23,980 bases of DNA, from positions 1 through 23,980 of the IMG/VR virus record IMGVR_UViG_3300002141_000083; one strand, given 5' to 3'. Each line of letters opens with the position of its first letter. Positions within the stretch are counted from its first letter, which is position 1. The notes below the pieces were generated by a model. That model was given only the letters and a program-made list of their open reading frames with translations. It did no database searches and was not told the origin of the DNA. The position numbers and the translations under genes are program-made. The DNA comes from a virus. This document shows, piece after piece, positions 5,227-23,980 of this stretch.

Positions 5227-5227
5227 A

Positions 5228-5482: not shown

Positions 5483-5485
5483 TCT

Positions 5486-5941: not shown

Positions 5942-5950
5942 TGTTATAAT
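5922..5950 (+). promoter_or_regulatory. Sigma70-type promoter with extended -10
   Basis: TTGAAG at 5922-5927, a 17-nt spacer and TGTTATAAT ending at 5950 form an extended -10 promoter. It fits host RNA polymerase. The predicted start point falls at the next gene's ATG (5956), which has no Shine-Dalgarno. It could drive the HARP-like gene and uvsW. Confidence 0.45.
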
Positions 5951-5955
5951 TAATC

Positions 5956-9072: not shown

Positions 9073-9075
9073 ACT

Positions 9076-10216: not shown

Positions 10217-10969
10217 TTAAATTAATTGTTTTAGTTTAAATGAAGAAATCCCTAAACTATGACATGCCTCTTTCTTTGAACTGTATAAGATTCCGTTAAT
10301 CACAATAGGTTTGGCATTAGAATTATTTCCTCCTGTGTTTTTACCTTTGCGATTTTCTGACCATAATTTTTTAGTTTTGTTAGAAAATTGTCTATTTTTA
10401 AGTTTAGACGATCTGTCTTGTTTAAGTTGATTGGCTTTTTCTACTCCGTATATTTCCTCGTATGTTAGTCCCTTTAAACAAGTAGTGCCTCCCTTATTTT
10501 TAGATGGTATTCCCTTTTTAGCATGACTTAATTTTATTTTGTGCTCTAATGTTTTTGGACCTTTAGGAATGCCTTTCTGTGCAATTGATCGTTTAATATT
10601 TGATTCAACTGACTCCGGAATTCCTTTATGAGCGTAAGAAATTGCAGCACTTCGATGTTTTCTTGCAAATTCATATAATCTTGAACTTGGAAAATATCTA
10701 TTATGATTTTTATTTGAAGTTAGCATCCTAGACAATGCAAATGCCATTTTATGTTTAGCATTTCCTGTTAACATTTTTATCAATAATAAATGACAAATAA
10801 AGTGTTCCCTTGCAGTTAGTCTGACTAAATTATCCGAGAGATTTGATCCTCCTAATGATTTGGGAATTATATGATGATTTTCTGTATAAGTGTCGGTAGA
10901 TATAGGCCTTGATTGTGCTATGTAAATAATGTTATAATAAGTTGTGGTGTATTTGTTTAATTGGAACAT
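10217..10969 (-). CDS. HNH homing endonuclease with NUMOD motifs
   Basis: A freestanding selfish endonuclease on the strand opposite its neighbours. The N-terminus is typical of phage HNH homing enzymes: LNKYTTTYYNII, then the HNH core HHIIPKSLGG at 32-41, N47 and REHFICH (54-60). The middle holds repeated NUMOD3-like DNA-binding motifs (KGIPESVE, KGIPKGPK, KGIPSKNKGG; about 115-160). The C-terminus (IVINGILYSSKKEACHSLGI) resembles a NUMOD1 module. The 250-residue frame is intact. It fits exactly between the upstream gene's stop (10216) and the next gene's ATG (10974), and there is no Shine-Dalgarno before its ATG. It is expected to spread its own locus by cutting endonuclease-free relatives nearby. 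Confidence 0.9.
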   Translation of the reverse strand: MFQLNKYTTTYYNIIYIAQSRPISTDTYTENHHIIPKSLGGSNLSDNLVRLTAREHFICHLLLIKMLTGNAKHKMAFALSRMLTSNKNHNRYFPSSRLYEFARKHRSAAISYAHKGIPESVESNIKRSIAQKGIPKGPKTLEHKIKLSHAKKGIPSKNKGGTTCLKGLTYEEIYGVEKANQLKQDRSSKLKNRQFSNKTKKLWSENRKGKNTGGNNSNAKPIVINGILYSSKKEACHSLGISSFKLKQLI

Positions 10970-10973
10970 ATAA

Positions 10974-11675
10974 ATGGGTAATGTAGGATTGTTAGATCAG
11001 CCGAATGAGTGCGTTCATTGTCATAAAAAATTCATGTCCTCTCGTACTTTATTTAGCCACATGTGCGAAAGAAAGCGGAGAGCTCTACAAAAAGATGAAA
11101 AGCGTGTGCAGGCTGGGTACATGGCCTTTAACCGATTTTGGCAATTAGCACAAGGCGGAAAAAAGTTAAAAACATATGATGAATTTAGTGACACTTCTTA
11201 TTATAACGCCTTTGTTAAATTTGGATCTTTTATCAATAATGTTAATCCATTGTATCCAGATAAGTTCATTGACTATGTGATCAAAAGCGGAATTAAACTT
11301 GATCACTGGTGTAGAGATGAGTTGTATGAACAGTATCTATTTGAAGTATTAAAATCTGAACCAGTTGAGAGTGCAGTACAACGAAGCCTACAGACCATGA
11401 TGTCATGGGCTGATGAGAACTCTGCAGAATTTTCTCATTACTTCAATTATGTTAGCCTTAATAGAGCAGTACACGATATCAGAAATGGCTATGTCAGTCC
11501 TTGGATAATTTTAAATACAGTATCAGGACAATCTATGATCCAGAAGATGAATGACGAACAATTAGAGATGATTTCTCCGGCATTTGATATTCCGTTCTGG
11601 GTTAGAAAATTTAAAAGTGTTCCTGCAGATGTTTCGTTAGTTAAAGAAATATGCAAGGAGGTTGGAATAAAATGA
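10974..11675 (+). CDS. Conserved phage protein with N-terminal zinc-finger-like motif, 233 aa
   Basis: Unknown function. Residues 13-31 give C-x2-C-x12-H-x-C (C13, C16, H29, C31), fitting a small zinc finger, followed by a basic stretch CERKRRALQKDEKR that could touch nucleic acid. The remainder is helical with aromatic patches (YMAFNRFWQLAQ; YYNAFVKFGSFINN; DHWCRDELYEQYLFEVL; SPWIILNTVSGQ). I recognise the layout from T4-like phages of aquatic origin but know no assigned role. A gp59-type helicase loader was considered; the sequence does not support it. The ATG lies 4 nt from the divergent endonuclease ATG; the upstream TATAAATG is one base off a late box. The 3' end overlaps nothing and carries the next gene's Shine-Dalgarno. 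Confidence 0.75.
   Translation: MGNVGLLDQPNECVHCHKKFMSSRTLFSHMCERKRRALQKDEKRVQAGYMAFNRFWQLAQGGKKLKTYDEFSDTSYYNAFVKFGSFINNVNPLYPDKFIDYVIKSGIKLDHWCRDELYEQYLFEVLKSEPVESAVQRSLQTMMSWADENSAEFSHYFNYVSLNRAVHDIRNGYVSPWIILNTVSGQSMIQKMNDEQLEMISPAFDIPFWVRKFKSVPADVSLVKEICKEVGIK
11655..11662 (+). promoter_or_regulatory. Strong Shine-Dalgarno AAGGAGGT
   Basis: A full anti-16S complement, 9 nt before the ATG at 11672 and inside the 3' end of the upstream gene. It fixes the start at 11672 instead of the upstream in-frame ATG at 11651. Confidence 0.85.
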
Positions 11676-12058
11676 CGACTGAAAAAGAATTCTGTCAACG
11701 ACATTATATACAGGTGATTGATACCAATAAACGATTTCAGCGATTTAGGAAGGTTGAGCCATTGTTTTTTAAAGATGGTAACGACTATAATACTGTATAT
11801 AATGAAGCAATTGAGTATGAAACAGAAAAACTGCTAACTATCACGATTCCGGAGAGTGAATTAGATAGAATTAAAGAGTTTGAAGATCAAGTTTTTAACA
11901 ACATGAAAACGCACGGTGGCGATCATTATATGATGTTTGAAATGATGATGGAACAGAAACAAGAGGAAAGAAGGTTGCGAGAAAAGTATCCTTCTGTAAA
12001 AAAAGCCTATGAACATTATAGTCTTATATTAAAGTTAGCTGGAAGCGGGGAACTATGA
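11672..12058 (+). CDS. Conserved phage protein of unknown function, 128 aa
   Basis: Not recognised. The strong Shine-Dalgarno at 11655-11662 implies high translation. The N-terminal half is mixed (FCQRHYIQVIDTNKRFQRF); the second half is a long, very Met/Glu-rich helix (MMFEMMMEQKQEERRLREKY) that may form a coiled coil. The C-terminus HYSLILKLAGSGEL contains ILKLAG, the same six residues that close the 754-aa protein at 771-3035. Its start overlaps the end of the zinc-finger gene by 4 nt and its TGA overlaps the next ATG (ATGA). Probably a soluble accessory protein; no function can be given. Confidence 0.75.
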   Translation: MTTEKEFCQRHYIQVIDTNKRFQRFRKVEPLFFKDGNDYNTVYNEAIEYETEKLLTITIPESELDRIKEFEDQVFNNMKTHGGDHYMMFEMMMEQKQEERRLREKYPSVKKAYEHYSLILKLAGSGEL

Positions 12059-12264
12059 ATATACCAAAAACAGGAAGCAAATGGTTTGCCTCCGATGGAA
12101 AAAAATTTAGAGTAATTAATTTAGTAGAAATTGATGGCAATCAATGGATACATTATATTGAAGAAGGTAAAGAACAGCCAACAGAATTTAGCTGTTATCT
12201 CGAAAGCTTCTTATCAAGATTTAGTGAGGGACCTGAGTATGACTCAACTACAAGGACTCGTTGA
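12055..12264 (+). CDS. Small phage protein, 69 aa
   Basis: Unknown function. The sequence is beta-rich and compact: GSKWFASDGKKFRVINL, then GNQWIHYIEEGKEQPTEFSCYLESFLSRF. This pattern (GSKW-SDGK-F-V, W-HY, SCY-ESFL-RF) looks like the small SH3-like or 'KOW-like' phage proteins that bind other proteins or nucleic acid; that is a fold guess only. Coupled to the upstream gene through ATGA and preceded by GGGGA. Its end overlaps the cupin start by 26 nt. Confidence 0.75.
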   Translation: MNIPKTGSKWFASDGKKFRVINLVEIDGNQWIHYIEEGKEQPTEFSCYLESFLSRFSEGPEYDSTTRTR

Positions 12265-12607
12265 AAAGGGTTGGGGAAGTGAATTTATATTTGCTACCAA
12301 CGACAAGTACTGTGGTAAACTATTAAGATTTAACACAGGTGCAAAATTTAGTATGCACTTCCATGCAGAAAAAGATGAAACTTGGTTTGTATTAAGTGGA
12401 AAGTTTATCGTCCGATATATTACTACTAAAGATGCAGAACAGCACGAAGTTGAGCTATCACAGAATGATGTATGGCATAACCCGCCATTATTCCCTCATC
12501 AAATAATTTGTGTTGAGGAAGGGGTATTAGTTGAAGTCAGTACACCCGATAGTGTTGAAGACAATTATCGTGTTGGCAAAGGTGACAGTCAAAATGCCAA
12601 GGTATAG
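12239..12607 (+). CDS. Cupin-domain protein, sugar-isomerase-like
   Basis: A single-domain cupin of 122 residues. It shows both cupin motifs: HFHAEKDETWFVLSGKF (metal ligands H41, H43 and E47 expected) and the second motif around DVWHNPPLFPHQI with H86. The opening GWGSEFIFAT is like the cupin domain of type II phosphomannose isomerases and related nucleotide-sugar cupins. The frame is open from 12131, but that would overlap the previous gene deeply; the ATG at 12239 directly precedes MTQLQGLVEKGWGSE and gives a domain of normal length. Lying upstream of the ADP-heptose genes in the same run of overlapping genes, it may process a sugar phosphate; substrate unknown. Confidence 0.8.
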   Translation: MTQLQGLVEKGWGSEFIFATNDKYCGKLLRFNTGAKFSMHFHAEKDETWFVLSGKFIVRYITTKDAEQHEVELSQNDVWHNPPLFPHQIICVEEGVLVEVSTPDSVEDNYRVGKGDSQNAKV

Positions 12608-12809
12608 GAAAGATTCGGATGGAAACGGCCCTACTTATAAGAAGGGTGACAGAGTGTGGGTTGCTCCGTTATCAATGGAGGCAACAGTCATTGAACAAAC
12701 ACTTCATCACGACTATCCTGAAACATTTTACGGTAATGTTAAATTAAAGTACGATGACGGCAGTGAAGGAACTAGTAACAGTTGGCAACTATCAAGGGTA
12801 GTTAGATGA
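12594..12809 (+). CDS. Small SH3/Tudor-like protein, 71 aa
   Basis: A 71-residue protein with a predicted small beta-barrel: YKKGDRVWVAP, then ATVIEQTL, GNVKLKYDDGSEG and WQLSRVV. The spacing of GDRVWV and the YDDG turn recall Tudor/Agenet-type SH3 barrels. The ATG at 12594 overlaps the cupin end by 14 nt and has AGGTGA before it; the longer frame from 12531 is less likely. Its TGA overlaps the hldD start codon as ATGA. Function unknown; it interrupts the cupin-hldD pair but does not break the transcript. Confidence 0.7.
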   Translation: MPRYRKDSDGNGPTYKKGDRVWVAPLSMEATVIEQTLHHDYPETFYGNVKLKYDDGSEGTSNSWQLSRVVR

Positions 12810-13582
12810 AAATATTAATTACAGGACATAAAGGGTTTATTGGTCAAAATATGATCAAAGTCTTAAAAGACGAACATACTTTATCTTTTTATGAGCCCGG
12901 TGATGACCTTCCGAATATTAAGGGATTAGATTGGGTAATACACCTCGGCGCACTTACTTCTACAACGGAAACAAATGTAGAACTAATGATGCAACACAAC
13001 TATGATTTTAGCAGATGGATCGCTACTCAGTGCAGAGACAACGGTGTAAACTTTCAGTATTCGAGTAGTGCTAGTGTATACGGTTTAAAAAATAGTTTTA
13101 ACGAAAGCGACCCGTCCGATCCACGAAGTCCGTATGCGTGGAGCAAGTTCTTGTTTGATCGTTACATTGCCCACCTTGCAGGTAGCTGGCCCATACTGGT
13201 GCAAGGATTCCGTTATTTTAATGTTTACGGTCCTCACGAAGATCATAAAGGTGACCAAGCAAGTCCTTATCATAAATTTGAAAAGCAGGCAAAAGAAACT
13301 GGTGTGATCAAATTGTTTGAAGGCTCGGAAAATTATCTAAGAGATTTTGTTCCTGTTGAGCGAGTATGCGACATACATAAACAATTTTTAAACATTAAAG
13401 AAACAGGGATTTGGAATGTAGGGCTCGGCAGAGCGACCTCATTTGAATCGGTTGCTAGGATGATTGCAGAGAAATACGATGCAACGATTGAATATATTCC
13501 CATGCCAGACAACATGAAAAATCAATATCAAACTTATACCTGTGCAGATATTGATTTACTTAAACGGTACATTGACGCATGA
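12806..13582 (+). CDS. hldD: ADP-L-glycero-D-manno-heptose 6-epimerase (HldD)
   Basis: Short-chain dehydrogenase-type epimerase that turns ADP-D-glycero- into ADP-L-glycero-D-manno-heptose, the LPS inner-core precursor. The cofactor loop is TGHKGFIG (6-13); the catalytic triad is seen as S87 region (YSSSAS) and Y110-x3-K114 (YAWSK). HldD-specific blocks are very clear: GFRYFNVYGPHEDHKG (134-149), KLFEGSENYLRDFVPV and YIPMPDNMKNQYQTYTCAD. At 258 residues it is shorter than the bacterial enzyme (about 310): the section between the cofactor loop and the active site is trimmed and the last ~30 residues are missing. It shares ATGA overlaps with both neighbours, so the heptose genes are translationally coupled. 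Confidence 0.93.
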   Translation: MKILITGHKGFIGQNMIKVLKDEHTLSFYEPGDDLPNIKGLDWVIHLGALTSTTETNVELMMQHNYDFSRWIATQCRDNGVNFQYSSSASVYGLKNSFNESDPSDPRSPYAWSKFLFDRYIAHLAGSWPILVQGFRYFNVYGPHEDHKGDQASPYHKFEKQAKETGVIKLFEGSENYLRDFVPVERVCDIHKQFLNIKETGIWNVGLGRATSFESVARMIAEKYDATIEYIPMPDNMKNQYQTYTCADIDLLKRYIDA

Positions 13583-13971
13583 CGATAGTTGTAAACGGCA
13601 CCTTTGATATCTTGCATCGTGGACACATCGAAATGCTTGAATATGCCAAGAGTCTAGGTGATCAGTTATTAGTATGTATTGACACCGATCGTAGAGTAAC
13701 AGAATTAAAAGGCCCAACAAGACCAATTAACAATCAGCAAGATAGGGCATTTATTCTTCAAAGTCTGAAATGTGTAGACATTGTAGAGTTCTTTGATAGT
13801 ACAGAAGAGCTTATTAACATAATAGAAATGTACAGGCCAGATATTATGGTTAAAGGTAGTGACTACATAGGAAACCCTATAGTAGGAGAAAGTCTTTGCA
13901 AAGAAATAAAATTTTATGATAGAACAGAACATTCAACAACAAAAATCATTCAGCGTATTATTAATAGGTGA
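13579..13971 (+). CDS. hldC: Heptose-1-phosphate adenylyltransferase (HldC / HldE C-terminal domain)
   Basis: A cytidylyltransferase-fold enzyme of 130 residues matching the C-terminal domain of HldE, which joins ATP and D-glycero-beta-D-manno-heptose 1-phosphate to ADP-heptose. The nucleotide-binding motif GTFDILHRGH (7-16, HxGH) is intact, and the HldE blocks TELKGPTRPIN, QSLKCVDIVEFF, PDIMVKGSDY and HSTTKIIQRI follow in order. In most Gram-negative bacteria this domain is fused behind the kinase; here it is a separate protein encoded before it. The start codon overlaps the hldD stop (ATGA), and its 3' end overlaps the kinase gene by 56 nt. Confidence 0.92.
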   Translation: MTIVVNGTFDILHRGHIEMLEYAKSLGDQLLVCIDTDRRVTELKGPTRPINNQQDRAFILQSLKCVDIVEFFDSTEELINIIEMYRPDIMVKGSDYIGNPIVGESLCKEIKFYDRTEHSTTKIIQRIINR

Positions 13972-14725
13972 TAGTTGCCTAGATGTATATATGGTGGGAT
14001 CCGTTGACCGGCTAAGTCCGGAAGCACCAGTACCAGTAATAAAATTAGTACAAAACTATTCTGCTCCAGGGATGGCCAGTAATGTACACACTAACTTACA
14101 AGCATTAGGAGTCGATGCTGACTTTATTACTAACGGAGAAACGGTTACAAAAACTAGATATATTGATAAAAGGTCTGGACAGCATCTATTAAGAGTAGAC
14201 GACGAACCAAAAATTGTTCCATGGAGTGGCCGTACTCCGTTTCCCATGGAAGAATATGACGCTGTTATAATATCAGATTACAACAAAGGTTTTCTAAGTT
14301 ACGAACATATAGAGAATATTATTCGTACAGTTAAATGCCCTGTGTTCATTGATACCAAAAAACAGGACTTATCTAGATTCAGTGCTCCTCATGTGTATGT
14401 TAAGATAAACGAATTGGAATATAAGAATAGATTTTCCATTCCTCAAAACTTAATTGTCACTATTGGTGATCGAGGTGCTACAATTTATAGATTAGGCTGC
14501 GAAGAAGTGACCTATAGCACCACCCAGGTAGAAGTCGTGGATGTGTGCGGCTGTGGAGACACATTCCTGGCAGCGTTTGCATATAAATACCTCTTTACAT
14601 ATAAGATTAATGACGCTATAATATATGCAAATGTGGCGGCAGGTGTTACTGTTCAACATCGTGGAAACTATGCTCCAACTTTAGAAGAAATTGAAAATGC
14701 CCGACATAGACTTAGACTTTGCTGA
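13916..14725 (+). CDS. hldA: Heptose-7-phosphate kinase, PfkB family (HldA / HldE N-terminal domain)
   Basis: PfkB-type sugar kinase matching the N-terminal domain of HldE, which makes D-glycero-beta-D-manno-heptose 1,7-bisphosphate. HldE signatures are present: IGDSCLDVY (17-25), RLSPEAPVPVIKL (32-44), a PGMASNV glycine motif, IISDYNKG (118-125), VTIGDRG and the catalytic loop GCGDTF (212-217, D215 as base; bacterial GAGDT). The first glycine pair of the family (GGAANV) reads GMASNV. Between ALGVDADF and TKTRYID about 30 residues present in E. coli HldE are missing. The ATG at 13916 overlaps the transferase gene by 56 nt but is needed to keep the GD motif at the usual position. GmhA and GmhB are not in the window; the host may supply them. 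Confidence 0.9.
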   Translation: MIEQNIQQQKSFSVLLIGDSCLDVYMVGSVDRLSPEAPVPVIKLVQNYSAPGMASNVHTNLQALGVDADFITNGETVTKTRYIDKRSGQHLLRVDDEPKIVPWSGRTPFPMEEYDAVIISDYNKGFLSYEHIENIIRTVKCPVFIDTKKQDLSRFSAPHVYVKINELEYKNRFSIPQNLIVTIGDRGATIYRLGCEEVTYSTTQVEVVDVCGCGDTFLAAFAYKYLFTYKINDAIIYANVAAGVTVQHRGNYAPTLEEIENARHRLRLC

Positions 14726-15275
14726 TAGAACAAAAATCCTTGATGTAATCAAACATGTCCCTGCGGCAATAGAAACCAATGGAACTTTTAAAAAGCACAA
14801 TACCGGAGTATATTGTACTTCTATCCCAGTTAATCCACTGACTGGTACAGCAAGCATAGACTACAAAGAAGCTGAAGATCGCGGCTACTTCAAAATTGAT
14901 TTCTTGAATGTTAGTATGTACAGTGGTATAAAAGATGAAGCACATCTCACTAGACTAATGGAGGCTGAACCGCTATGGGATTTACTACAGGACGACAGTT
15001 TCACGAATTTATTGTTTCACATAAACGGGTATGGAGACTTGCTACGGACGCAGAAGCCGAAGAGTGTAGAAGAGGTGGCCGTGTGCCTAGCCTTGATCCG
15101 CCCAGGGAAGCGACACCTACAAGAGATGACGAAGATCGATATTATGAATCAGATATGGGAGAAACCGACGACCGGTGAGTACCATTTCAAGAAAGCCCAC
15201 GCTATAGCCTATGCAACGGCTATTGTAGTTCAGATGAACTTGATCTGCGAGGGAATTAGTTACGAATACAGCTAA
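14697..15275 (+). CDS. Miniature DnaE-like protein (bacterial polymerase III alpha core)
   Basis: A 192-residue protein whose blocks line up, in order, with the catalytic core of DNA polymerase III alpha. PDIDLDF (2-8) matches the DnaE motif with two catalytic Asp; FKIDFL (66-70 region, D68) matches KFDFLGL with the third; LLFHINGYGDLL, SVEEVAVCLALIRPGK (123-138) and YHFKKAHAIAYA (162-173) match FQLESRGMKDL, the LVALFRPG block and the FNKSHSAAYA finger motif. The PHP, thumb, OB and tau-binding parts are absent and the core itself is cut to under half its usual size. The ATG at 14697 overlaps the kinase end by 29 nt. It could be a degenerate or regulatory relic, an end-processing polymerase or a binder of host replication parts; activity is unknown. 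Confidence 0.8.
   Translation: MPDIDLDFADRTKILDVIKHVPAAIETNGTFKKHNTGVYCTSIPVNPLTGTASIDYKEAEDRGYFKIDFLNVSMYSGIKDEAHLTRLMEAEPLWDLLQDDSFTNLLFHINGYGDLLRTQKPKSVEEVAVCLALIRPGKRHLQEMTKIDIMNQIWEKPTTGEYHFKKAHAIAYATAIVVQMNLICEGISYEYS
14975..15178 (+). CDS. Possible overlapping ORF inside the DnaE-like gene, 67 aa
   Basis: A frame wholly inside the DnaE-like gene but read in a different register. Support: GGAGG at 14960-14964, ten bases before the ATG, and a local shift to GC-richer codons in the host gene over the same interval, as expected if two frames are constrained. The product opens MGFTTGRQFHEFIVSHKRV and ends very acidic and Arg-rich (TRDDEDRYYESDMGETDD). It resembles nothing I recognise. The alternative is a recombined or chance segment, so confidence is low. 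Confidence 0.25.
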   Translation: MGFTTGRQFHEFIVSHKRVWRLATDAEAEECRRGGRVPSLDPPREATPTRDDEDRYYESDMGETDDR

Positions 15276-15652
15276 CGCTTAGGGAGAACTCTAACTAGTT
15301 GTATAGATCTTCTCTTAATGCGTTTTTCTGCGATTTCACTTAGGTTAACTGTTGGGCCAAATATAAGCTCAGCATCTTTGCTATTAAATGTCTTAATAGT
15401 GTATCTAAAAAATTGCATTTCTTTTTTTAGGAATATATTAATGGGTATTTTACGGTTGCTTTCCCACCACCAAGTTTCTCCCATTTCTAAAAATAGAGTA
15501 CGCTCGTCTTCGGACCTAATAGTAGAGATATCGTAGATACTAGCTACAAAGTTATCTAAATTTATAACGATGCCTACATACTCAATATCATTACTTTTGA
15601 TACATGAAATAAATGGATAGTTTTCTTGAAAGGTGGTTGTTTTAGTTGTCAT
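15272..15652 (-). CDS. Conserved small phage protein, minus strand, 126 aa
   Basis: Unknown function. The sequence has the GETWWWESNRKIPINIFLKKEM block (57-78), with three tryptophans in a row, and TIKTFNSKDAELIFGPTVNLSE; I associate this pattern with small conserved proteins of aquatic T4-like phages. The C-terminus is basic (EKRIKRRSIQLVRVLPKR). Its stop codon shares bases CTAA with the convergent DnaE-like stop. A TATTTATA at 15691-15698 reads as TATAAATA on this strand and could be its late promoter with a leader of about 33 nt; a GAAGA sits before the ATG. Confidence 0.75.
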   Translation of the reverse strand: MTTKTTTFQENYPFISCIKSNDIEYVGIVINLDNFVASIYDISTIRSEDERTLFLEMGETWWWESNRKIPINIFLKKEMQFFRYTIKTFNSKDAELIFGPTVNLSEIAEKRIKRRSIQLVRVLPKR

Positions 15653-15657
15653 TCTTC

Positions 15658-15665
15658 AATAAATA
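15658..15665 (+). promoter_or_regulatory. Late-promoter-like box AATAAATA
   Basis: Exact NATAAATA match, 7 nt before the ATG at 15673 of a probable virion protein. No Shine-Dalgarno lies between it and the start codon, so the transcript would be leaderless or nearly so. Confidence 0.6.
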
Positions 15666-15672
15666 CTCTATA

Positions 15673-16515
15673 ATGCAAAATTTACCAATCTATTTATATC
15701 CAAACACCCTCGGGGTGATATTAGATCTGGATTCAACAGTCAAGGGAGTTAATCGGATTATGTATCAGCGCGAACTAAAAATACAGAAGGGCATAAAAAA
15801 TAAGATCCGTGTCCAAGTAAAAAACAGCGATCAAAAGCGGATTACCCTTAGTGATTCTGATGTCTATGTGTTTTCCTTATTTGATGCAACCAACCAACGG
15901 CTACTATTAGAAAAAGAATTAACTGTCTTAGATGACGGTGATACCTTTTCTCTAAGAGGACTAGCAGAATTTACCCTAACTGAAAGTGATACTATGGACT
16001 TGGATGTTGGTAACTATCAATATTCCGTCAAGTATCTGGATCCAGATGATCACACCTACTTGCCCGCATACAGCAACACCTATTACGGTGTAGCAGGGAC
16101 ATTAACTCTACTACAAGATGTTTATCCAAACCTACAGCCAAGCCAAGAAGTAGTGGCGTATAATCGAGTTTATAACGATTCGATAAGTTTATATCAACAT
16201 AAGAGCGGAAACATCTACGCTTACCCAGAATACAACAGTAATACAGCATTACATACCGCCGCAATGTATATGACCAATTTTATTGGTACAGTTTCCGTTG
16301 AAGGAACATTATATAACAGTCCTGCTACATTCGATCGATATGTTACCATTGAAACTCGAGAGTACAACGGTTTTACCGGAATTGATTATGTGAACTTTAA
16401 CGGTATATTCAGCTTTGTTCGATTCACTTTTCAGCCTGCTGTTGCGCCAAGCGAATCTCTTAATAATAATCCAGAATACTACGGTTCATTTGACAAGGTC
16501 CTATATAGATGTTAA
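15673..16515 (+). CDS. Probable virion structural protein, 280 aa
   Basis: A beta-rich protein typical of phage tail or baseplate components, but the exact part cannot be named. It opens MQNLPIYLYPNTLGV, then a strand-rich domain (RIMYQRELKIQKGIKNKIRVQVKN cut by turns; residues 30-60) reminiscent of the N-terminal domain of baseplate upper proteins. The second half is Tyr/Asn/Ser-rich (YNRVYNDSISLYQHKSGNIY; FVRFTFQPA). No membrane segment. The frame opens earlier (15646), but ATG 15673 is chosen because the late box ends 7 nt upstream and nothing resembles a ribosome-binding site before 15646. The late-type promoter supports a structural role. Confidence 0.75.
   Translation: MQNLPIYLYPNTLGVILDLDSTVKGVNRIMYQRELKIQKGIKNKIRVQVKNSDQKRITLSDSDVYVFSLFDATNQRLLLEKELTVLDDGDTFSLRGLAEFTLTESDTMDLDVGNYQYSVKYLDPDDHTYLPAYSNTYYGVAGTLTLLQDVYPNLQPSQEVVAYNRVYNDSISLYQHKSGNIYAYPEYNSNTALHTAAMYMTNFIGTVSVEGTLYNSPATFDRYVTIETREYNGFTGIDYVNFNGIFSFVRFTFQPAVAPSESLNNNPEYYGSFDKVLYRC
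15691..15698 (-). promoter_or_regulatory. Late-promoter-like box TATAAATA on the minus strand
   Basis: TATTTATA on the plus strand gives the T4 late consensus on the minus strand, pointing at the gene that starts at 15652. It lies inside the first codons of the plus-strand gene (IYLY), so codon constraint may explain it. Confidence 0.35.
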
Positions 16516-16524
16516 TATGTAAGT

Positions 16525-17526
16525 GTGAACGAAATACAGTCTACACTTCTAAGTCTTTTACCGCATAATAGAAAAAACACATCCGGTGGGTGGGTTAGTT
16601 TCAATGCTGTCTGCTGTCACCACCGAGGTGAGAAGCCGGACACAAAGAAACGAGGCGGTATAAAATCTGATAGCGACTCTTGGACTTATCACTGCTTCAA
16701 CTGCGGCTTTAAAGCAGGATGGAGTCCGGGCAAACTGTTAAGTGGCAATACTAAACTCCTGTTCAAATGGTTGGGATTAACCGATCTAGACATAGGTAAG
16801 TTAGGCCTTGTTGCACTCAAGCATCAAGAGAATATGCCCAAAGCAGAAAAGGTATTAAATCTCGATCTTAAAGAAATAGAATTGCCCGATGGTGCAATGT
16901 CTGTAATGGAGTGGATTAACACCGGGTACTTGCCCGATGTTGCAGAAGACATTGGCAAGATAGTAGAGTACATCATAAGTCGCGGAATGGACCTAGATTG
17001 GTACAACTGGATGTGGTCACCTGCTCCCGGTTATGTAGACAGGGTGTTGATTCCGTTCTATCAGGATAGAAAGATAGTCGGGTATACTGGGAGAAAGATA
17101 ACAGATGGTAAACCGAAGTATCTTACGGAAAGTCAAAGCGGGTATGTTTTCAACATAGACCGCCAAGACAGAAATAGACAGTATGTTATCGTATCTGAAG
17201 GGCAGTTTGATGCTATTGCAATCGACGGTGTTGGCATAATGACTAATGAACCAAACGATGCCCAAGTACTAAGGATAAATGCATTAGCCAGAGAAGTTAT
17301 TGTTGTACCTGATCGAGATCGGCCCGGTGCTAAGATGCTAAAGCATGCCATCAAACACAATTGGTCAGTTAGTTTACCACCTTGGGGCGACGATGTAAAA
17401 GATATAGCAGAAGCAGTCCGTAAGTATGGACGCATCTATGTATTGACCACGATCTTACACTATAGAGTCTCTGGAGAGATAAAAATAAATCTACTGAAGA
17501 AAAAATTAGAGGGCCTAAATGAATAA
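16525..17526 (+). CDS. gp61: DNA primase, gp61 family
   Basis: T4 gp61-type DnaG-like primase that lays down RNA primers on the lagging strand with helicase gp41. An N-terminal zinc-binding module is visible: CCHHRG (C30-H33 region) with YHCFNCGF (C57, C60). The catalytic TOPRIM domain has IVSEGQFDAIAI (E225) and VVPDRDRPG (D263, D265). Between them lies VDRVLIPFYQDRKIVGYTGR, the usual RNA-polymerase-like part. Length 333 matches gp61 (342). The start is a GTG at 16525; the ATG nine bases earlier is followed by a stop. The Shine-Dalgarno is weak. The 3' end overlaps gp41 by 8 nt, coupling primase and helicase synthesis. Confidence 0.93.
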   Translation: MNEIQSTLLSLLPHNRKNTSGGWVSFNAVCCHHRGEKPDTKKRGGIKSDSDSWTYHCFNCGFKAGWSPGKLLSGNTKLLFKWLGLTDLDIGKLGLVALKHQENMPKAEKVLNLDLKEIELPDGAMSVMEWINTGYLPDVAEDIGKIVEYIISRGMDLDWYNWMWSPAPGYVDRVLIPFYQDRKIVGYTGRKITDGKPKYLTESQSGYVFNIDRQDRNRQYVIVSEGQFDAIAIDGVGIMTNEPNDAQVLRINALAREVIVVPDRDRPGAKMLKHAIKHNWSVSLPPWGDDVKDIAEAVRKYGRIYVLTTILHYRVSGEIKINLLKKKLEGLNE

Positions 17527-18982
17527 ACCAAATTACGACCATGCAATGCAGAAATTATATCTTGAAATGTTTCTTGGAGATGCAGAAACTTTCATCCGGT
17601 GTCAAAATATATTTGATCCAAAAAACTTTGATCAGCGATTACAAGATTCTGCTGAATTCATCAGCAAATATGTTGACGAATATAAAGTCATGCCCGAAGT
17701 TAGCATCGTTAATGCTTCAACTAAGAGTCAATTTGAATCGGTACAACTACCAAAAGAAAATTACGATTGGTTGATGGATGAGTTTGAAAACTTTAGTCGA
17801 CACAAAGGATTAGAGCGAGCTATTATTGAAAGTAGCGATTTACTTGAAGCAGGTGATTACGGCCCAGTTGAAAAGCTGATTAAGGATGCTATTCAAATTA
17901 GTCTAAACAAAGATATGGGTACAGACTACTTTGATGACCCTCGGGCTCGATTAACTAAACTTAAAGATGGCAACGGGCAGGTTAGTACAGGATGGCCTAG
18001 CATTGATAAGAAACTCTATGGTGGATTTAACCGCGGTGAGTTGAACATTTTCTGCGCAGGATCAGGTGGCGGTAAATCATTGTTCCTTGCTAACTTGGGG
18101 TTGAACTGGGTACTGGCTGGTTTGAATGTTGTTTATCTAACTTTCGAGTTGAATGAGGGATTGGTTAGTATGCGGCTTGACAGCATGACTACTGGTATTA
18201 GTACTCGTGATATCTTTAAGAACATCGACGATGTTGAATTAAAGGTTAGAATGTTGGGTAAAAAGTCGGGAAGCCTACAAGTTAAGTACATGCCTTCGGG
18301 GAAAAATTGTAACGATTTACGAGCCTATTTGAAGGAATATCAAGTTAAAACTGGTCGGAAACCGGATGTTTTGTTAATAGATTACCTCGATTTGATGATG
18401 CCTTTAAGTGTGAAGGTATCGCCCAGCGATCTGTTCGTAAAAGACAAATATGTGTCAGAAGAAATTCGAAACCTAGCAATGGAGACGCAATGTATTACTG
18501 TAACAGCGTCACAGTTGAATCGTAGTGCTGTAGAAGAGATTGAGTTTGATCACAGCCATATTTCAGGTGGCTTGAGTAAGATCATGACGGCAGATAATGT
18601 GATTGGTATCTTTACTAGCAGGGCTATGAAAGAGCGGGGCCGCTTTCAAATTCAGTTTATGAAAACTCGGTCAAGCAGTGGCGTTGGACAAAAGGTAGAC
18701 CTAGAGTTTAACATTGATACTCTACGGATTAGTGACCTAGGGGATGAAGCAGATAGTTTTAGTCAGGGCGGCGGTAAACCACAAAGCCCTGCGGTCGGAA
18801 TTTATAGCAATCTTAAGAGGACTAGCTCTGTAAGTACTACTACTGATCCGGACACTGGGGAAATTATAGAAGTGGATCCTAAGCAAGGTGCAAACCTTAA
18901 GCTGAATAAATCTACTACTCCGGCTCCGCTAATTAGGCAATGGGTTAATAATATGCCTAACCTAAATCCTGAGAAAGATTAA
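17519..18982 (+). CDS. gp41: Replicative DNA helicase, gp41 (DnaB family)
   Basis: The hexameric 5'-3' fork helicase of T4-like phages. Residues 1-135 form the N-terminal interaction domain. The RecA-like motor has Walker A GSGGGKS (181-187), a glutamate after strand 2 (YLTFELNEG), Walker B VLLIDYLDLM (284-293), and TASQLNRSA (329-337), the DnaB-family motif that senses ATP state. A conserved arginine-rich end lies at FQIQFMKTRSSSGVG. Length 487 fits gp41 (475). An AGAGG lies before the ATG at 17519. The tail after residue 430 is Ser/Thr/Pro-rich and disordered. Its TAA shares TTAA with the convergent stop of the minus-strand YqgE-like gene. Confidence 0.95.
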   Translation: MNKPNYDHAMQKLYLEMFLGDAETFIRCQNIFDPKNFDQRLQDSAEFISKYVDEYKVMPEVSIVNASTKSQFESVQLPKENYDWLMDEFENFSRHKGLERAIIESSDLLEAGDYGPVEKLIKDAIQISLNKDMGTDYFDDPRARLTKLKDGNGQVSTGWPSIDKKLYGGFNRGELNIFCAGSGGGKSLFLANLGLNWVLAGLNVVYLTFELNEGLVSMRLDSMTTGISTRDIFKNIDDVELKVRMLGKKSGSLQVKYMPSGKNCNDLRAYLKEYQVKTGRKPDVLLIDYLDLMMPLSVKVSPSDLFVKDKYVSEEIRNLAMETQCITVTASQLNRSAVEEIEFDHSHISGGLSKIMTADNVIGIFTSRAMKERGRFQIQFMKTRSSSGVGQKVDLEFNIDTLRISDLGDEADSFSQGGGKPQSPAVGIYSNLKRTSSVSTTTDPDTGEIIEVDPKQGANLKLNKSTTPAPLIRQWVNNMPNLNPEKD

Positions 18983-19539
18983 AACCAAGCATTGACCTGA
19001 TATTTGGCAGCGTTATCTACTGCGGCTCGCCATTGTTCAGGTCCTTCTCCGTCAAATATACCGTCAACAGTAGCAGGAGTTATTTCCCACTTATGTGGAT
19101 AAGTTCTATCACGGGGATCTAGCATGTCATCTAACATACCATTGTCCCATAACCAGTAACCCGCACATGCTCTAAAATGTTCCGGTCCTTCATTCCTGCT
19201 AAGGGCCGCTAACACACTTACATCATTGGTAACACTGATCTGATCGTTAAGTTTTGTTGTGCTCATTCCTTTCCAATCATTGCTATGTATCACATGGATC
19301 TTATTCTGTGCTATATTACCGCCAAAGTAAACTAAATCTTCTCTTGGATAACTTTCCAATCCTATGTTATATGCTATTGTTTGTAAATTAACATCTTCTA
19401 CAGGATTATTAACTTGTAGGGCAATGCTTAACTTATCTGTGTGGCTAACTATCAGCATTACACTCTTGCCAAGTTCGTCACGGGGATTATTGGGATTAGC
19501 TACAAGTAGATAGCCGGGATATTTTTTATTTGATGTCAT
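18979..19539 (-). CDS. YqgE/AlgH-like protein (DUF179 type)
   Basis: A 186-residue member of the YqgE/AlgH family, found in many bacteria and of uncertain function (AlgH was linked to alginate regulation). The match is from the opening: KYPGYLLVANPNNPRDELGKSVMLIVSH, with the LL-A-P---D---KSV pattern, LSIALQVNNP, then YFGGNIAQNKIHVIHSNDW, SVTNDVSVLAAL, and GYWLWDNGMLDDML. The ATG at 19537-19539 is preferred over 30 codons of extension that would run across the divergent gene's promoter. GGTAAATA (one base off the late box) lies 8 nt before this ATG on the minus strand. In a phage it may bind a host partner; this is inference. Confidence 0.85.
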   Translation of the reverse strand: MTSNKKYPGYLLVANPNNPRDELGKSVMLIVSHTDKLSIALQVNNPVEDVNLQTIAYNIGLESYPREDLVYFGGNIAQNKIHVIHSNDWKGMSTTKLNDQISVTNDVSVLAALSRNEGPEHFRACAGYWLWDNGMLDDMLDPRDRTYPHKWEITPATVDGIFDGEGPEQWRAAVDNAAKYQVNAWF

Positions 19540-19547
19540 AACAAAAG

Positions 19548-19555
19548 TATTTACC
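19548..19555 (-). promoter_or_regulatory. Possible minus-strand late box GGTAAATA (one mismatch)
   Basis: Seven of eight positions match NATAAATA. It ends 8 nt before the YqgE-like ATG, about the same spacing as the exact boxes elsewhere, and lies 2 bases from the divergent plus-strand box. Confidence 0.3.
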
Positions 19556-19556
19556 G

Positions 19557-19564
19557 CATAAATA
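19557..19564 (+). promoter_or_regulatory. Late-promoter-like box CATAAATA
   Basis: Exact NATAAATA match, 7 nt before the nucleotidyltransferase ATG at 19572. The 32-bp gap between divergent genes holds it with no Shine-Dalgarno. Confidence 0.6.
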
Positions 19565-19571
19565 TCCGTAT

Positions 19572-20267
19572 ATGATCCAAAACGAATACGCAAAACCCGT
19601 AGAGTACAATACTGTACTGAATCCCGCAATTTGGGATAATAATCGTCTTAAAAGCAATGTTAGGGGCGCATTACTACGCATGGCCGAAGATTTTAAAGAA
19701 TTTATTGGAGTACCGTTTGAAGCTGTGGATGTTGTTATTACTGGCGGCAATGTTAACTACAACTATACAGAACACAGCGACATTGATCTACATCTAATCG
19801 CAGACTTTGATCAAGTTAGGTGTGATCGAGAAGTTGCAGAACTATTTGACAGCAAACGGCTCTTATACAAACGACAATACGATTTATCCATCCATGGGAT
19901 ACCTGTAGAGTTGTATGTAGAAGATCATCGTATGCCCGCAGTTAGCGCAGGAGCATACAGTGTGTTATCGGGCAACTGGCTTAAGAAACCTCAACAAGAT
20001 TTACCAAAGTATAACGAAAAAGAACTAGCACATTGGGTTGCAATTTGGAAAAAAATATTCCGTCAAGCAATTAAAACCGGTGATCTGCGGACCTGTCGAA
20101 ATGCGTTAAAATTATTAAGGCAGTATAGAAAGTTGGGTTTGAAAAAGCCCGAGGGTGAATTTAGTATACCAAATCTGGTCTACAAAAGCCTACGCAATGA
20201 TCAAGTAATACAGGGCATCTCAATACTAATTGATAGACTACATGATCAAGAATTAAGTATCAGTTAA
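19572..20267 (+). CDS. Nucleotidyltransferase-fold protein
   Basis: A 231-residue protein with the pol-beta/MNT nucleotidyltransferase signature: VITGGNVNYNYTEHSDIDLHLI (56-76), with GG and the paired acids D70 and D72 that bind metal and nucleotide. The third acid probably lies in GIPVELYVED (about 110-118). The second half is helical (LAHWVAIWKKIFRQAI...RKLGLKKPEGEF), like the substrate-binding helical part of this superfamily. Families with this fold add nucleotides to RNA, proteins or antibiotics; the substrate is unknown here. A late box sits 7 nt upstream and there is no Shine-Dalgarno, so it is probably a late gene, perhaps packaged in the virion. The following unknown gene has its own late box. 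Confidence 0.8.
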   Translation: MIQNEYAKPVEYNTVLNPAIWDNNRLKSNVRGALLRMAEDFKEFIGVPFEAVDVVITGGNVNYNYTEHSDIDLHLIADFDQVRCDREVAELFDSKRLLYKRQYDLSIHGIPVELYVEDHRMPAVSAGAYSVLSGNWLKKPQQDLPKYNEKELAHWVAIWKKIFRQAIKTGDLRTCRNALKLLRQYRKLGLKKPEGEFSIPNLVYKSLRNDQVIQGISILIDRLHDQELSIS

Positions 20268-20274
20268 GTACGCG

Positions 20275-20282
20275 GATAAATA
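20275..20282 (+). promoter_or_regulatory. Late-promoter-like box GATAAATA
   Basis: Exact NATAAATA match ending 5 nt before the ATG at 20288, with T4 spacing placing the start point on that ATG. No Shine-Dalgarno is visible. Confidence 0.6.
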
Positions 20283-20287
20283 ATCGT

Positions 20288-21022
20288 ATGAATATTACAT
20301 CTCAACAACAATTTGATGAATTAACAAAGTTAAAAAAAACTTATCGATTTAAAAGAACATTTGGCTTTACATTAACAAGTGTACGATATCACAGTCTAGT
20401 TCATAAGCCAACTAGTAGACTATTGTTCATTAGTTATTGGGAAGCTGTTCCTAATATACTTGCAGAAAGTACCTTAAATACAATCCAATCATTTTGGGTC
20501 AACTCTGTTGCTGCCCCAGTTATTACTAAAGATTTTGATTCTAGTAGACCATGGATGTATCAGTGGGATAACTCTCAAAAGAAATATCTAAAATCCGATC
20601 CTTCATTAACCTTTGATGAAAAATACTTCTATATACTAATAGCAGAAAAGGCAGCGGTACTAGATATCATATTGCATAAACTACAACATTATCGCAGAAT
20701 GTTCAGTCATGATTATTTGTTTCAACAGGACATATATCGATTAAAAGCAAACGAGTCTTTGGAGATAATAAAAAATAAAATTACAGACATGAACGGCGAC
20801 TTTCCTTTTACAGAAGCCTATGCTGAATTTGAGGGCATTGACCTACAGACTGCCGCACAAAGTATAAACATACAGGATAAATTTTTTCAAACTCGTATGT
20901 TGAATACAGAAATGCTTAGATTAAAATATCTTAGAAAAATAAAAGATTGTTCTGATGTACAGCAACTACACCCAATTTTAAATGATTTTTATAAAGAAGG
21001 AGAAGTATATGGCAGACTCTAA
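20288..21022 (+). CDS. Phage protein of unknown function, 244 aa
   Basis: Not recognised. A soluble, mostly helical protein rich in aromatic and basic residues. Notable stretches: TYRFKRTFGFTLTSVRYHS (18-36), RLLFISYWEAVPN, RPWMYQWDN, and a long helical part FDEKYFYILIAEKAAVLDIIL. A DMNGDFPFTEAYAEFEGID loop lies around 160-180. There are no cysteine clusters, signal peptide or membrane segments. The late box 5 nt upstream suggests late expression. Its 3' end contains the AAGGAGAA for the next gene, and the two overlap by 14 nt, so it is probably linked in function to the PP-loop gene. Confidence 0.7.
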   Translation: MNITSQQQFDELTKLKKTYRFKRTFGFTLTSVRYHSLVHKPTSRLLFISYWEAVPNILAESTLNTIQSFWVNSVAAPVITKDFDSSRPWMYQWDNSQKKYLKSDPSLTFDEKYFYILIAEKAAVLDIILHKLQHYRRMFSHDYLFQQDIYRLKANESLEIIKNKITDMNGDFPFTEAYAEFEGIDLQTAAQSINIQDKFFQTRMLNTEMLRLKYLRKIKDCSDVQQLHPILNDFYKEGEVYGRL

Positions 21023-22139
21023 TCTAATATTTTATAATTCAGTTGATCTATTTCATCCGGAAAAAAGTAATTTATATGCAGAATTTGTAAATGAAAAACC
21101 GGGGTTTGATTTATTTCAATATATGTTTCGTATCTTTGCTGCCAACCTTTCTCTAGTAGATCGGACTAAAACTTTAACAACTCCACTAAACATGCAGTTG
21201 TTAGATTGTTGCAAATTGCCCAACTACGATCCAGATTTTAGTTTAGACTTTACTGATATATGTCAGGCACGGGCAAGATGGTTTTTAGACTATGCTCAAA
21301 ACACAAATAGAAAAATAGTAGTAATGTATAGTGGAGGTATTGATAGCACTTTAATATTATCAAGTTTCATTATGGTCGGCACCGTTGAAGAACTAAAAAA
21401 CAACATAGTCGTATTACTGACTAATACTAGTATTGACGAAAATCCTACTTTTTATAGAAATCATGTTTTAAAAAAGTTTACTTTAGAATCAGGATATGCA
21501 TTTCAAAATTTTTTAGGAAACCCAAAATACATTGTGGTTACCGGAGAGGGTAATGATCAGTTATTTGGATCAGTAGTTATGCATCGTTTTGTTCTTAAGA
21601 AAGGTCCAGATATCTTAACGGCAACTCCTACCTCAAATTTAATATCAGAACTTATAAATGAATCAGTTTACGATCGAGAAAAGAGTGAAAAAATAACCGA
21701 ATTGTTTAATCGTGTTGTTAACAGTGCTCCCATGAAAATAGAAACAGTGAACCAATATTTTTGGTGGCTAAACTTTACATTAAAATGGCAAAGTGTTTAT
21801 ATGCGTATAGTTGCCTACACTTCTCCTAAGTTTAGATCAACTGTTAAAATTGAAGACAATTATTTTACATTTTTTCATGCTCCAGATTTTCAAAAATGGG
21901 TGATGCGCCATCCTGACCAGTTAATTAGAGAAACTTGGGCTAGTTATAAATGGAAATGTAAAGAAGTGATATTCGAAGTTAATCCGGATGAAAACTATCG
22001 AGATAATAAAACTAAATTTGGTAGTTTAATACGAGTGGTATCAGGAAAACACATTGCCAAATGTATTGATAGTAACGGAGTATTTTACGATACTAACTAT
22101 CCAACAGATTGTTGGAATACAGAAAACGATTTTATTTAA
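21009..22139 (+). CDS. PP-loop ATP pyrophosphatase, asparagine-synthetase-like
   Basis: A 376-residue N-type ATP pyrophosphatase. The PP-loop VVMYSGGIDST (104-114) is clear, and TGEGNDQLFGS (178-188) matches the T-GEG-DE-FGGY motif of the asparagine synthetase family, with N and Q in place of G and E. There is no N-terminal Ntn glutaminase domain, so ammonia or another nucleophile would have to come from elsewhere. Enzymes of this group adenylate a carboxylate or amide to form amide bonds, or modify bases. AAGGAGAA at 20997-21004 sets the ATG at 21009; the longer frame is excluded. It ends 9 nt before a symporter with a linked Shine-Dalgarno, so it may act on the transported substrate; this is inference. 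Confidence 0.8.
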   Translation: MADSNLIFYNSVDLFHPEKSNLYAEFVNEKPGFDLFQYMFRIFAANLSLVDRTKTLTTPLNMQLLDCCKLPNYDPDFSLDFTDICQARARWFLDYAQNTNRKIVVMYSGGIDSTLILSSFIMVGTVEELKNNIVVLLTNTSIDENPTFYRNHVLKKFTLESGYAFQNFLGNPKYIVVTGEGNDQLFGSVVMHRFVLKKGPDILTATPTSNLISELINESVYDREKSEKITELFNRVVNSAPMKIETVNQYFWWLNFTLKWQSVYMRIVAYTSPKFRSTVKIEDNYFTFFHAPDFQKWVMRHPDQLIRETWASYKWKCKEVIFEVNPDENYRDNKTKFGSLIRVVSGKHIAKCIDSNGVFYDTNYPTDCWNTENDFI

Positions 22140-22148
22140 GGAAAAAGT

Positions 22149-23504
22149 ATGGAAATTATTATCACATCATCGTTATTTTTATTAATGATATTTGCAGGTC
22201 TTGTGTTTGCTGGCACCGGATGGAGCTCGAGCATTAACAATTTTTTATTTGCAAATAGAAATTTAGAAAAGGTCTCTAGTAGTTTAGCAATTACCAGTCA
22301 TTGGTTTTGGGCTATTGCTATATTTGTAGGCCCGGCAGTTGCATACAACTGGGGCTGGCAGGGATTATTATGGTTTGCTATACCTAACGGTATCAGTTGT
22401 TGGATTGTAGGTTACTTAGCACACCGTGTGCGAGACAAATATCCAGACGGATATAGTTTGACTGAATATATTAAAGATAACTTTTCATCTCGTGTTAGTC
22501 GACTTTTTCAACTACAATTTGTATTAATTAGCTTGGCCGCACTACTATTAGGCTTCACTGCCATTAATAAACTGTGGAGCTTTACGAACCTTGCAGGCTA
22601 TATTGAACCTATATATGCCAGTTTAGCTGTTGGGTTAATTACTCTTGGGTTCACACTGCGTGGCGGAATTCGAACATCGGTCTTTACGGGTGCAATACAA
22701 ACAATACTATGGATAGGACTGTTAGCAGTTACATCTTTATTACTGGTTAACTTAGATTGGTCATGGTTTTCTTCCGGAAAAAACAATTTAGATTCAGTTG
22801 TTAATTTAGATTTTATGTCTAAATTTTCTGTAGCATTTTTGATATCTATTTTAGTCGGAGCAAGTTCACATGGCATGATGTGGCAAAAAGCATTTTCAAT
22901 GCCCAAAGAAAACATTAAACCTACATTCTATACCGCTGGTGTTATATTTTCGTTGATTGTCGTTGCGCTAGGAAGTTTGGGGCTTTATGCTCAAGCACAG
23001 GGATTAGAAGTTAAAGTTGCTGACACTGCACAAATGGTATCAATGTTAGCCATCGGTGGACCGTTGCTATTAACTGCGTTTGCTGTTATTTTAATCGGTC
23101 AAACATCTACAGTAATGGATTCAAGTTTAAATTATATTTCTAGTTTAATTACTCGTGAATGGTTACATAAAGATAGCGTTAACACTAGCCGTGCAATTAT
23201 GGTACTATTTGTATTATTAGCCTGGTTGATATCTTGGGCAAAATTAGAAATATGGACTATCTTAATGCTAATGAGTGCTGTCCGTATTGTAATGTTTGTG
23301 CCACTAGTGTTGGAAATTATGAAGAAGAAATTTAACGAGAGTTGGGTATTTTATTCATCAATTATTAGCATTGCTCTAGCAGTATATCTTGCTTGGCAAG
23401 CCCGAGAGTTTAAAATGCCAATTTATGATATGTATTCTGCACTAGTAGCATTGGGGATTCCGGTAGGCGTATATCTTGTTACAAAGCTAAATAAGAGTAG
23501 CTAA
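22149..23504 (+). CDS. Sodium:solute symporter family membrane protein
   Basis: A 451-residue inner-membrane protein with about 13 predicted membrane segments (first 1-22; later ones include LQFVLISLAALLLGF, AIQTILWIGLLAVTSLLL and IWTILMLMSAVRIVMF). The SSS-family signature TLRGGIRTSVFTGAIQ (about 168-183) matches R-GG-RAV-WTD-IQ, and GQTSTVMDSSLNYISS resembles the transmembrane segment with the sodium-site Ser/Thr. The length is near the family norm (450-550), so it looks complete. Substrates of this family include sugars, amino acids, organic acids, urea and vitamins; none can be chosen from sequence. AAGGAAAA (22138-22145) precedes the ATG. A phage-encoded copy is unusual. Confidence 0.88.
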   Translation: MEIIITSSLFLLMIFAGLVFAGTGWSSSINNFLFANRNLEKVSSSLAITSHWFWAIAIFVGPAVAYNWGWQGLLWFAIPNGISCWIVGYLAHRVRDKYPDGYSLTEYIKDNFSSRVSRLFQLQFVLISLAALLLGFTAINKLWSFTNLAGYIEPIYASLAVGLITLGFTLRGGIRTSVFTGAIQTILWIGLLAVTSLLLVNLDWSWFSSGKNNLDSVVNLDFMSKFSVAFLISILVGASSHGMMWQKAFSMPKENIKPTFYTAGVIFSLIVVALGSLGLYAQAQGLEVKVADTAQMVSMLAIGGPLLLTAFAVILIGQTSTVMDSSLNYISSLITREWLHKDSVNTSRAIMVLFVLLAWLISWAKLEIWTILMLMSAVRIVMFVPLVLEIMKKKFNESWVFYSSIISIALAVYLAWQAREFKMPIYDMYSALVALGIPVGVYLVTKLNKSS

Positions 23505-23530
23505 TATTAAATTAGTTTGGGAGAGTTAAT

Positions 23531-23854
23531 ATGATCAAAAGAACCAAAACTTGGATAAGACCAAACACAAGCGTTAAATTCCACAAGGCTAACGCTGAGT
23601 ATTCTGCCTATATAAAAACAGCTTATGTTGACACAGGTAAGCGAGTTTTCATATCTAAGACATTGAGCGAAGACAAGCTAACACTAACTCTAATTACAGT
23701 ATGGCGCGACTTAGCCGCACACGATGAGTTTGTTGCTGATGTAATGGTACAAGCTGATGTAGAGACTCGAATAGCATACAACAGAGCAAACGGAATTCAA
23801 AATACCAATGTTGAGCCCGAAAAGGTAACGATTGAAACAATTTCATCAATCTAA
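23531..23854 (+). CDS. Small conserved phage protein, 107 aa
   Basis: Unknown function. The opening MIKRTKTWIRPNTSVKFH and the middle SEDKLTLTLITVWRDLAAHDEFV recall small dimeric ferredoxin-like (ABM-type) domains and a family I have seen in aquatic phages; the link is a fold guess. No catalytic motif or membrane segment is visible. GGGAGAG at 23519-23525 supports the ATG. It is the last gene before a strong terminator, so the run from 20288 ends here. Confidence 0.75.
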   Translation: MIKRTKTWIRPNTSVKFHKANAEYSAYIKTAYVDTGKRVFISKTLSEDKLTLTLITVWRDLAAHDEFVADVMVQADVETRIAYNRANGIQNTNVEPEKVTIETISSI

Positions 23855-23875
23855 ATAAACATAGTCAGTATTCAC

Positions 23876-23900
23876 AAAAAAAGGGCCTAGGCCCTTTTTT
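23876..23900. terminator. Palindromic bidirectional terminator
   Basis: A perfect palindrome, A-run plus AGGGCCTAGGCCCT plus T-run (23877-23900). It gives a GC-rich 6-bp core with A/T tails that would terminate on either strand. It closes the unit ending at 23854 and insulates the next gene. Confidence 0.9.
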
Positions 23901-23902
23901 CT

Positions 23903-23910
23903 ATTAAATA
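23903..23910 (+). promoter_or_regulatory. Possible late box ATTAAATA (one mismatch)
   Basis: One base off NATAAATA and 8 nt before the HAD-like ATG at 23919. It lies right after a terminator, where a new promoter is expected, and no Shine-Dalgarno is visible. Confidence 0.35.
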
Positions 23911-23918
23911 TGCATATA

Positions 23919-23980
23919 ATGACAACTCAACAAAAATTTACCCTTTACTTAGACATGGACGGGGTTCTGGCAGATTTTAA
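23919..23980 (+). CDS. HAD-like phosphatase, 5'(3')-nucleotidase type (3' partial)
   Basis: Only the first 20 codons are present; the window ends inside the gene. They contain TLYLDMDGVLADF, the HAD superfamily motif I with nucleophile Asp and the second Asp two residues on. DMDGVLADF is typical of 5'(3')-deoxyribonucleotidase-like proteins often found in phages. An in-frame ATG at 23910 is an alternative start. With no sequence beyond motif I, the substrate cannot be judged. Confidence 0.75.
   Translation, partial: MTTQQKFTLYLDMDGVLADF

Follow-up and report, generated by a model that had tools for sequence, protein, structure and literature searches.

The window analysed here (the whole 23,980-nt stretch, positions 1 to 23,980 of IMG/VR record IMGVR_UViG_3300002141_000083) carries a real and intact gene for an SSS-type transporter, and it does so within a genuine T4-like phage. 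The strongest clue to the role of this transporter comes from the neighbouring genes, which the earlier note had passed over: it is preceded by genes for a 'helper' protein and an AsnB-like ligase. We put at about even chances the interpretation that it is a LeuT-fold SSS/SLC5 permease forming an optional part of an ATP-dependent phage module that consists of the helper, the ligase and often a cupin. The features concerned are the following.

20288-21022, plus strand: 'helper' protein of 244 aa, of no known family, whose gene runs 14 nt into the ligase gene
21009-22139, plus strand: AsnB-like PP-loop ligase of 376 aa, with SGGIDST and GEGNDQLFG motifs
22138-22142, plus strand: Shine-Dalgarno sequence (AAGGA) of the transporter gene, 6 nt 5' of the ATG
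22140-23874, plus strand: swappable segment (transporter gene plus 107-aa gene), from alignment with the sibling phage L011
22149-23504, plus strand: divergent SSS/SLC5-type (LeuT-fold) transporter of 451 aa, from the ORF, homology and predicted fold
23531-23854, plus strand: small protein of 107 aa, with a sub-threshold hint of an ABM domain
23875-23901, plus strand: palindrome with a T-run (AAAAGGGCCTAGGCCCTTTTTT), a likely terminator, read by eye

The transporter ORF is complete from ATG to TAA, with zero internal stops. It starts 9 nt after the ligase gene, whose own start was placed at 21009 by an AAGGAG at 20997-21002; together with the helper/ligase overlap, this spacing is operon-like. 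The Shine-Dalgarno sequence that the earlier note had assigned to the transporter shares bases with the stop of the preceding PP-loop gene (TAAGGA). Because AAGGA occurs in the window about as often as expected by chance (8 found versus 7.1 expected), the one argument for this assignment is its position, which does fit.

Membership in the SSS family (SLC5, TC 2.A.21) is established through homology to recognized members and through a predicted full-length LeuT-type SLC5 fold. No Pfam or NCBIfam match to the window protein was obtained at 1e-3, and the gathering cut-off of the Pfam SSF model (PF00474), which is a detection threshold and not a biological trait, was not reached by the window protein or by its relatives L006, L007 and L091, although it was passed by the relatives L004, L037, L188, L190 and L191. 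The 'recognisable family motifs' of the earlier note are therefore there by way of intermediate relatives, the window protein itself falling below PF00474. BLASTP against L004, an SSF-positive homologue, gave E = 6e-35, a plasmid gene annotated 'sodium:solute symporter' was matched in tblastn (E = 4e-22), and the nameless family PHROG 20720 was matched at E = 7.5e-31, the other protein here matching that family being L004, an SSF protein by Pfam. When a profile of ten relatives was compared with the PDB, DUR3 came first (E = 5e-30), followed by other SLC5 proteins. An AlphaFold model of the transporter (pLDDT 79, pTM 0.81) matched SLC5 structures over residues 1-451 (DUR3, Z = 34.9; CHT1, 34.5; NIS, 31.4), and its top structure matches were SLC5 proteins (Z = 27-35, about 400-430 residues). 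A library of viral protein structures held no close viral SSS protein, an absence which is not proof. From the sequence-profile, BLASTP and fold matches we conclude that the protein belongs to the SSS-type permeases as a divergent member; the earlier note's view of a near full-length transporter of this type in a phage is thus borne out.

The setting is that of a phage. Genes for terminase, UvsX, UvsW and a DnaB-like helicase are present in the window, and a sibling phage contig (L011/G628) matches it at 2499-9935 (97.3% identity), 10980-15062 (93.8%), 15018-22139 (96.3%) and 23875-23980 (92.5%). Between the last two blocks the sibling lacks the segment 22140-23874 and has in its place a cupin gene on the reverse strand, along with a gene for a 97-aa protein homologous to the 107-aa one; the palindrome at 23875-23901, which our scan did not report, is also present in the sibling. 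With phage sequence on either side of it, the transporter gene is cargo at a defined place, that is, a host-type gene inside a genuine phage, as expected of an auxiliary metabolic gene. A host-phage chimera, which the earlier note had named as a possible refutation, is ruled out by the same matches. The composition of the gene resembles that of the window. In a relative, the 192,832-bp contig L091, T4-like baseplate genes are present and the SSS copy lies far from the contig ends. No T4 late promoter motif (TATAAATA) was found near the transporter gene, and the motif was not in excess. Searches of these contigs for Terminase_6N and gp23 gave no matches, and the gp23 search, which gave none in the controls either, carries no information. 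Two other parts of the window deserve mention. An ORF at 10217-10969 (minus strand), HNH-endonuclease-like by eye, sits inside a gap of the L011/L186 alignment (about 9936-10979) and is likely a homing endonuclease confined to one sibling; at 12806-14725 stand three consecutive genes resembling those of ADP-heptose synthesis (epimerase, adenylyltransferase and kinase; HldD/HldE parts), which score below the NCBIfam cut-offs.

Six more aquatic phage proteins were found (L002, L003, L005, L006, L007 and L091), with 46-58% identity to the window protein; all seven phage copies are full length and their frames are undamaged. The best cellular relatives, obtained by scanning 84,980 species genomes, show about 30% identity or less, and closer ones could have been missed because the scan depends on short patterns. 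An initial scan with three close sequences returned no relatives; a ten-sequence SSS profile succeeded and gave 103, the nearest being SSS proteins of Alpha- and Gammaproteobacteria, Patescibacteria, Bdellovibrionota and Clostridia. Some bacterial relatives are accompanied by PP-loop genes, either the same or others, but the bacterial proteins differ from the window protein in their identity (≤30%), in passing PF00474 (those tested) and in having D241 and T/V51 in place of histidines. Maximum-likelihood analysis placed the seven phage copies together in a single clade (support 100/100) with a long stem; the tree singles out no cellular protein as the closest neighbour of this clade, and its deeper joins are unsafe because of long branches. 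The homologue L004 (MT836198.1, GenBank 'Bacteriophage sp.' from human faeces) was considered as a second phage lineage, but over about 8.7 kb its DNA shows 95-97% identity to a Yanshouia hominis contig; as it could be of bacterial or prophage origin, it was set aside.

The earlier note had stressed the rarity of such genes in phages, a claim that does not hold as a novelty: SSS genes occur in phage records of Aeromonas (19) and Campylobacter (2), and a full-length SSS protein in a T4-like phage has been known since 2006 from Aeromonas phage 44RR2.8t, where ORF234c was reported as SSF (PMC1524935). ORF234c and its relatives (PMC1524935, AY375531) are like the window protein in this respect. 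However, ORF234c is SGLT-like (as are the genes of the 19 Aeromonas records), has 507 aa, belongs to PHROG 15045, matches PF00474 at E = 6e-53, adjoins motA with no PP-loop ligase annotated beside it, and is separated from the window protein in the tree by a very long branch. What is new is an aquatic, phage-only SSS clade on a long stem, falling below the Pfam SSF model and marked by phage-only histidines in TM1 and TM6. Also new is the arrangement in which the transporter is preceded by helper and ligase, with the same partners beside different SSS proteins elsewhere.

The partner ligase has the SGGxDS and GEGxDQ motifs of asparagine synthetase B and of lasso cyclase-like PP-loop ligases. 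It differs from asparagine synthetase B in that no glutaminase domain was seen, and it forms a family of its own, with no match in 50,697 phage records. A weak PF00733 match was obtained in a homologue, and a low-confidence model (pLDDT 63) gave a weak fold match to asparagine synthetase. A ligase profile scan of IMG/VR yielded 328 relatives, from which 60 dereplicated loci were taken for neighbour counts. The helper family occurs in 35/60 of these loci and a second family takes the same place in 17/60; a cupin is present in 26/60, the family of the 107-aa protein in 6/60 and an SSS gene in 5/60. The SSS protein is therefore not essential to the module. L007 shows the order helper, ligase, cupin, SSS. 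In another phage (L037), genes for methyltransferases, a class IV aminotransferase and a hydrolase lie upstream of helper, ligase and a distant SSS protein that passes PF00474. Seen from the transporter side, a PP-loop gene lies within two genes of the SSS gene in 7 of 8 phage SSS loci (within-locus chance 3e-4, or roughly 1e-3 when L037, which is not independent because it was found through the ligase, is left out). This linkage is weakened by the fact that some of the linked islands, such as that of L006, are rich in PP-loop genes anyway. In L005 the ligase is elsewhere on the contig, none being found within 5 kb of the SSS gene. The literature searched contained no papers on a helper-ligase-cupin module.

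Other genes in the phage islands were noted by eye. Around the SSS gene of L091 are four fatty-acid-desaturase-like genes (6370-7919 and 15150-16711, minus strand) as well as ATP-grasp-like and radical-SAM-like genes. Solute-binding proteins resembling TRAP DctP and TctC receptors share islands with SSS in L006 (4488-6443), L002 (1847-2743) and L003 (3-353).

The same partners were met in cellular genomes at three loci that had been found by a genome scan with SSS alone. Two of them are in small-genome bacteria: in G003 the SSS, helper and ligase genes are consecutive and a cupin gene is close, and the Kaiserbacteria genome G001 has helper, ligase and SSS. In Bdellovibrio G002 a cupin directly precedes SSS. 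The SSS proteins of all three fall outside the phage clade in the tree; hence the pairing is not confined to that clade. A cupin-only search of 241 genomes of the phylum of G002 gave seven positives, G002 included; in the stretches read, SSS was close to the cupin in only 2 of the 7. In another of the seven, the Bdellovibrionota genome G489, a cupin, ligase genes, a helper, an amidase (PF01425, 8.7e-87) and an SSS gene (PF00474, 3.6e-25) lie within about 8 kb, the amidase gene abutting SSS; a third, G533, has a methyltransferase, a helper, two ligases, a carrier protein and a cupin with no SSS close by. Among 380 genomes of the Kaiserbacteria phylum the ligase was found in G001 only, and is thus rare there. 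An SGGxDS gene lies within 5 kb of SSS in 61 of 81 cellular SSS loci, a count left out as independent evidence because it comes mostly from one Clostridial operon; in L101, L115, L167 and other Clostridial loci this operon comprises, by eye, SSS, a PAPS-reductase-like PP-loop protein, a ParB/IbrB-like protein and an IbrA-like PP-loop protein. A second cellular SSS-ligase pairing is seen in L097, L099 and L103, where a 581-591-aa SGGIDS gene (asparagine-synthetase-like by eye) stands directly upstream of SSS and follows a gene for a 323-330-aa zinc-ribbon-like protein. On contig 15 of G003 (L093/L094), about 11 kb with SSS, helper and ligase is present twice, in identical form, either as a tandem duplication or as an assembly artefact.

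Enzymes of the AsnB type make amides by way of carboxylates activated as acyl-adenylates. By analogy, the phage ligase would adenylate a carboxylate with ATP during infection and would form an amide-type bond on a small molecule, and the permease would move a precursor (more likely) or the product across the host inner membrane. The residues of the transporter bear on its substrate and its coupling ion. DUR3/UreA urea-H+ symporters are its best sequence and fold matches, at about 17% identity, and the TM1 W-x-W is common to both: in the alignment W52/W54 correspond to UreA W82/W84, the urea sandwich that binds urea (PMC9783183). W52 is kept in 7/7 phage copies and W54 in 6/7 (F in L003). This motif is general in the cellular relatives too, and so is not specific to urea transporters. 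The TM7 Asp286 required in UreA is replaced by His241 in all phage copies, and the transporter is not filed as a DUR3 member. The retained W-x-W and the amidase next to SSS in G489 give a hint only of a small amide or ureido substrate, and uptake of a limiting nutrient, as put forward in the earlier note, found no support, nothing identifying substrate or direction.

In a comparison of the 7 phage copies with 78 cellular relatives, His51 (TM1) and His241 (TM6) were invariant in the phage copies, where the cellular relatives have T/V/A/S and, in 78/78, Asp, respectively. The sodium-3 Asp present in many SSS proteins is Gly181 (TM5) in the phage branch; 13 of the 78 cellular relatives also have Gly at this position. 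The classical Ser/Thr sodium pair of TM8 (PutP S340/T341) is paired with T321/V322 by ungapped alignment, in which the second sodium hydroxyl is V/I in 7/7 phage copies and T/S in 77/78 cellular ones. Profile alignment to one cellular set slips by one residue and pairs S320/T321 with the sodium site; profile alignment to another set is ungapped. As the two alignment methods disagree on the TM8 register, we favour neither an intact Na2 pair at S320/T321 nor a broken one at T321/V322. Sodium coupling as assumed in the earlier note is thus not supported, and the disrupted sodium site that the note would have taken as refutation appears in all phage copies in the ungapped register, while the slipped register keeps S320/T321.

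A proton-coupled or ion-independent permease, in which the sodium site is lost and the phage-only His51 and His241 are used, is a possibility that we hold only tentatively; it concerns energetics and is compatible with a role in the module. The two histidines speak for it, as do known family members: SiaT requires both sodium-site hydroxyls, S343A abolishing transport (PMC5931594), UreA/DUR3-type proteins are proton-driven (PMC4077062), and so is CbrA (PMC7096432), an SSS member whose SLC5 domain does not conserve the classical pair, though it is fused to a kinase and transports histidine (PMC7096432). On the other hand, one profile alignment restores the S-T pair, and the histidines may serve the substrate instead. 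A stand-alone sodium-driven importer that takes up a limiting solute and is functionally unconnected with its neighbours is rather unlikely: SSS proteins are typically Na+/solute importers, S320-T321 could be an intact pair if the helix were shifted by one residue, and SSS is missing from most ligase loci, but the partners recur across phages and bacteria, and V/I at the second hydroxyl in the ungapped alignment, together with Gly at the sodium-3 position, argue against it.

That the protein exports or senses the product of the module (as an exporter, sensor or transceptor) instead of importing is improbable. A role with the end product would suit a gene that follows the ligase and is exchanged for a cupin gene in the sibling, and some SSS domains act in signalling proteins (CbrA), yet characterized SSS proteins mostly import and a signalling domain is absent here. 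Its presence or absence between sibling phages could also suggest a passenger gene, acquired by chance and useless to the phage; this we regard as very improbable in view of seven intact full-length copies in one phage-only clade and a composition like that of the window. The module permease thus remains our preferred reading. A bolder extension of it, to which we give a low probability, would make the transporter part of an undescribed small-molecule pathway that T4-like phages have in common with bacteria that are small or predatory (Patescibacteria/Kaiserbacteria and Bdellovibrionota). In it, helper, AsnB-like ligase and cupin would often be joined by methyltransferases, an aminotransferase and, in a single genome, a carrier protein, and the phage permease would have moved from sodium to proton coupling.

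The roles of transporters carried by phages are difficult to infer, since sequence rarely reveals their substrates, and here the gene neighbourhood offers a testable handle on the role of one of them. If the parts cooperate, phages and host-dependent bacteria would share a small-molecule pathway undescribed in the literature searched, the product of which could be sought directly, and the phage SSS branch would be a natural test of a change of coupling ion in an SSS permease.
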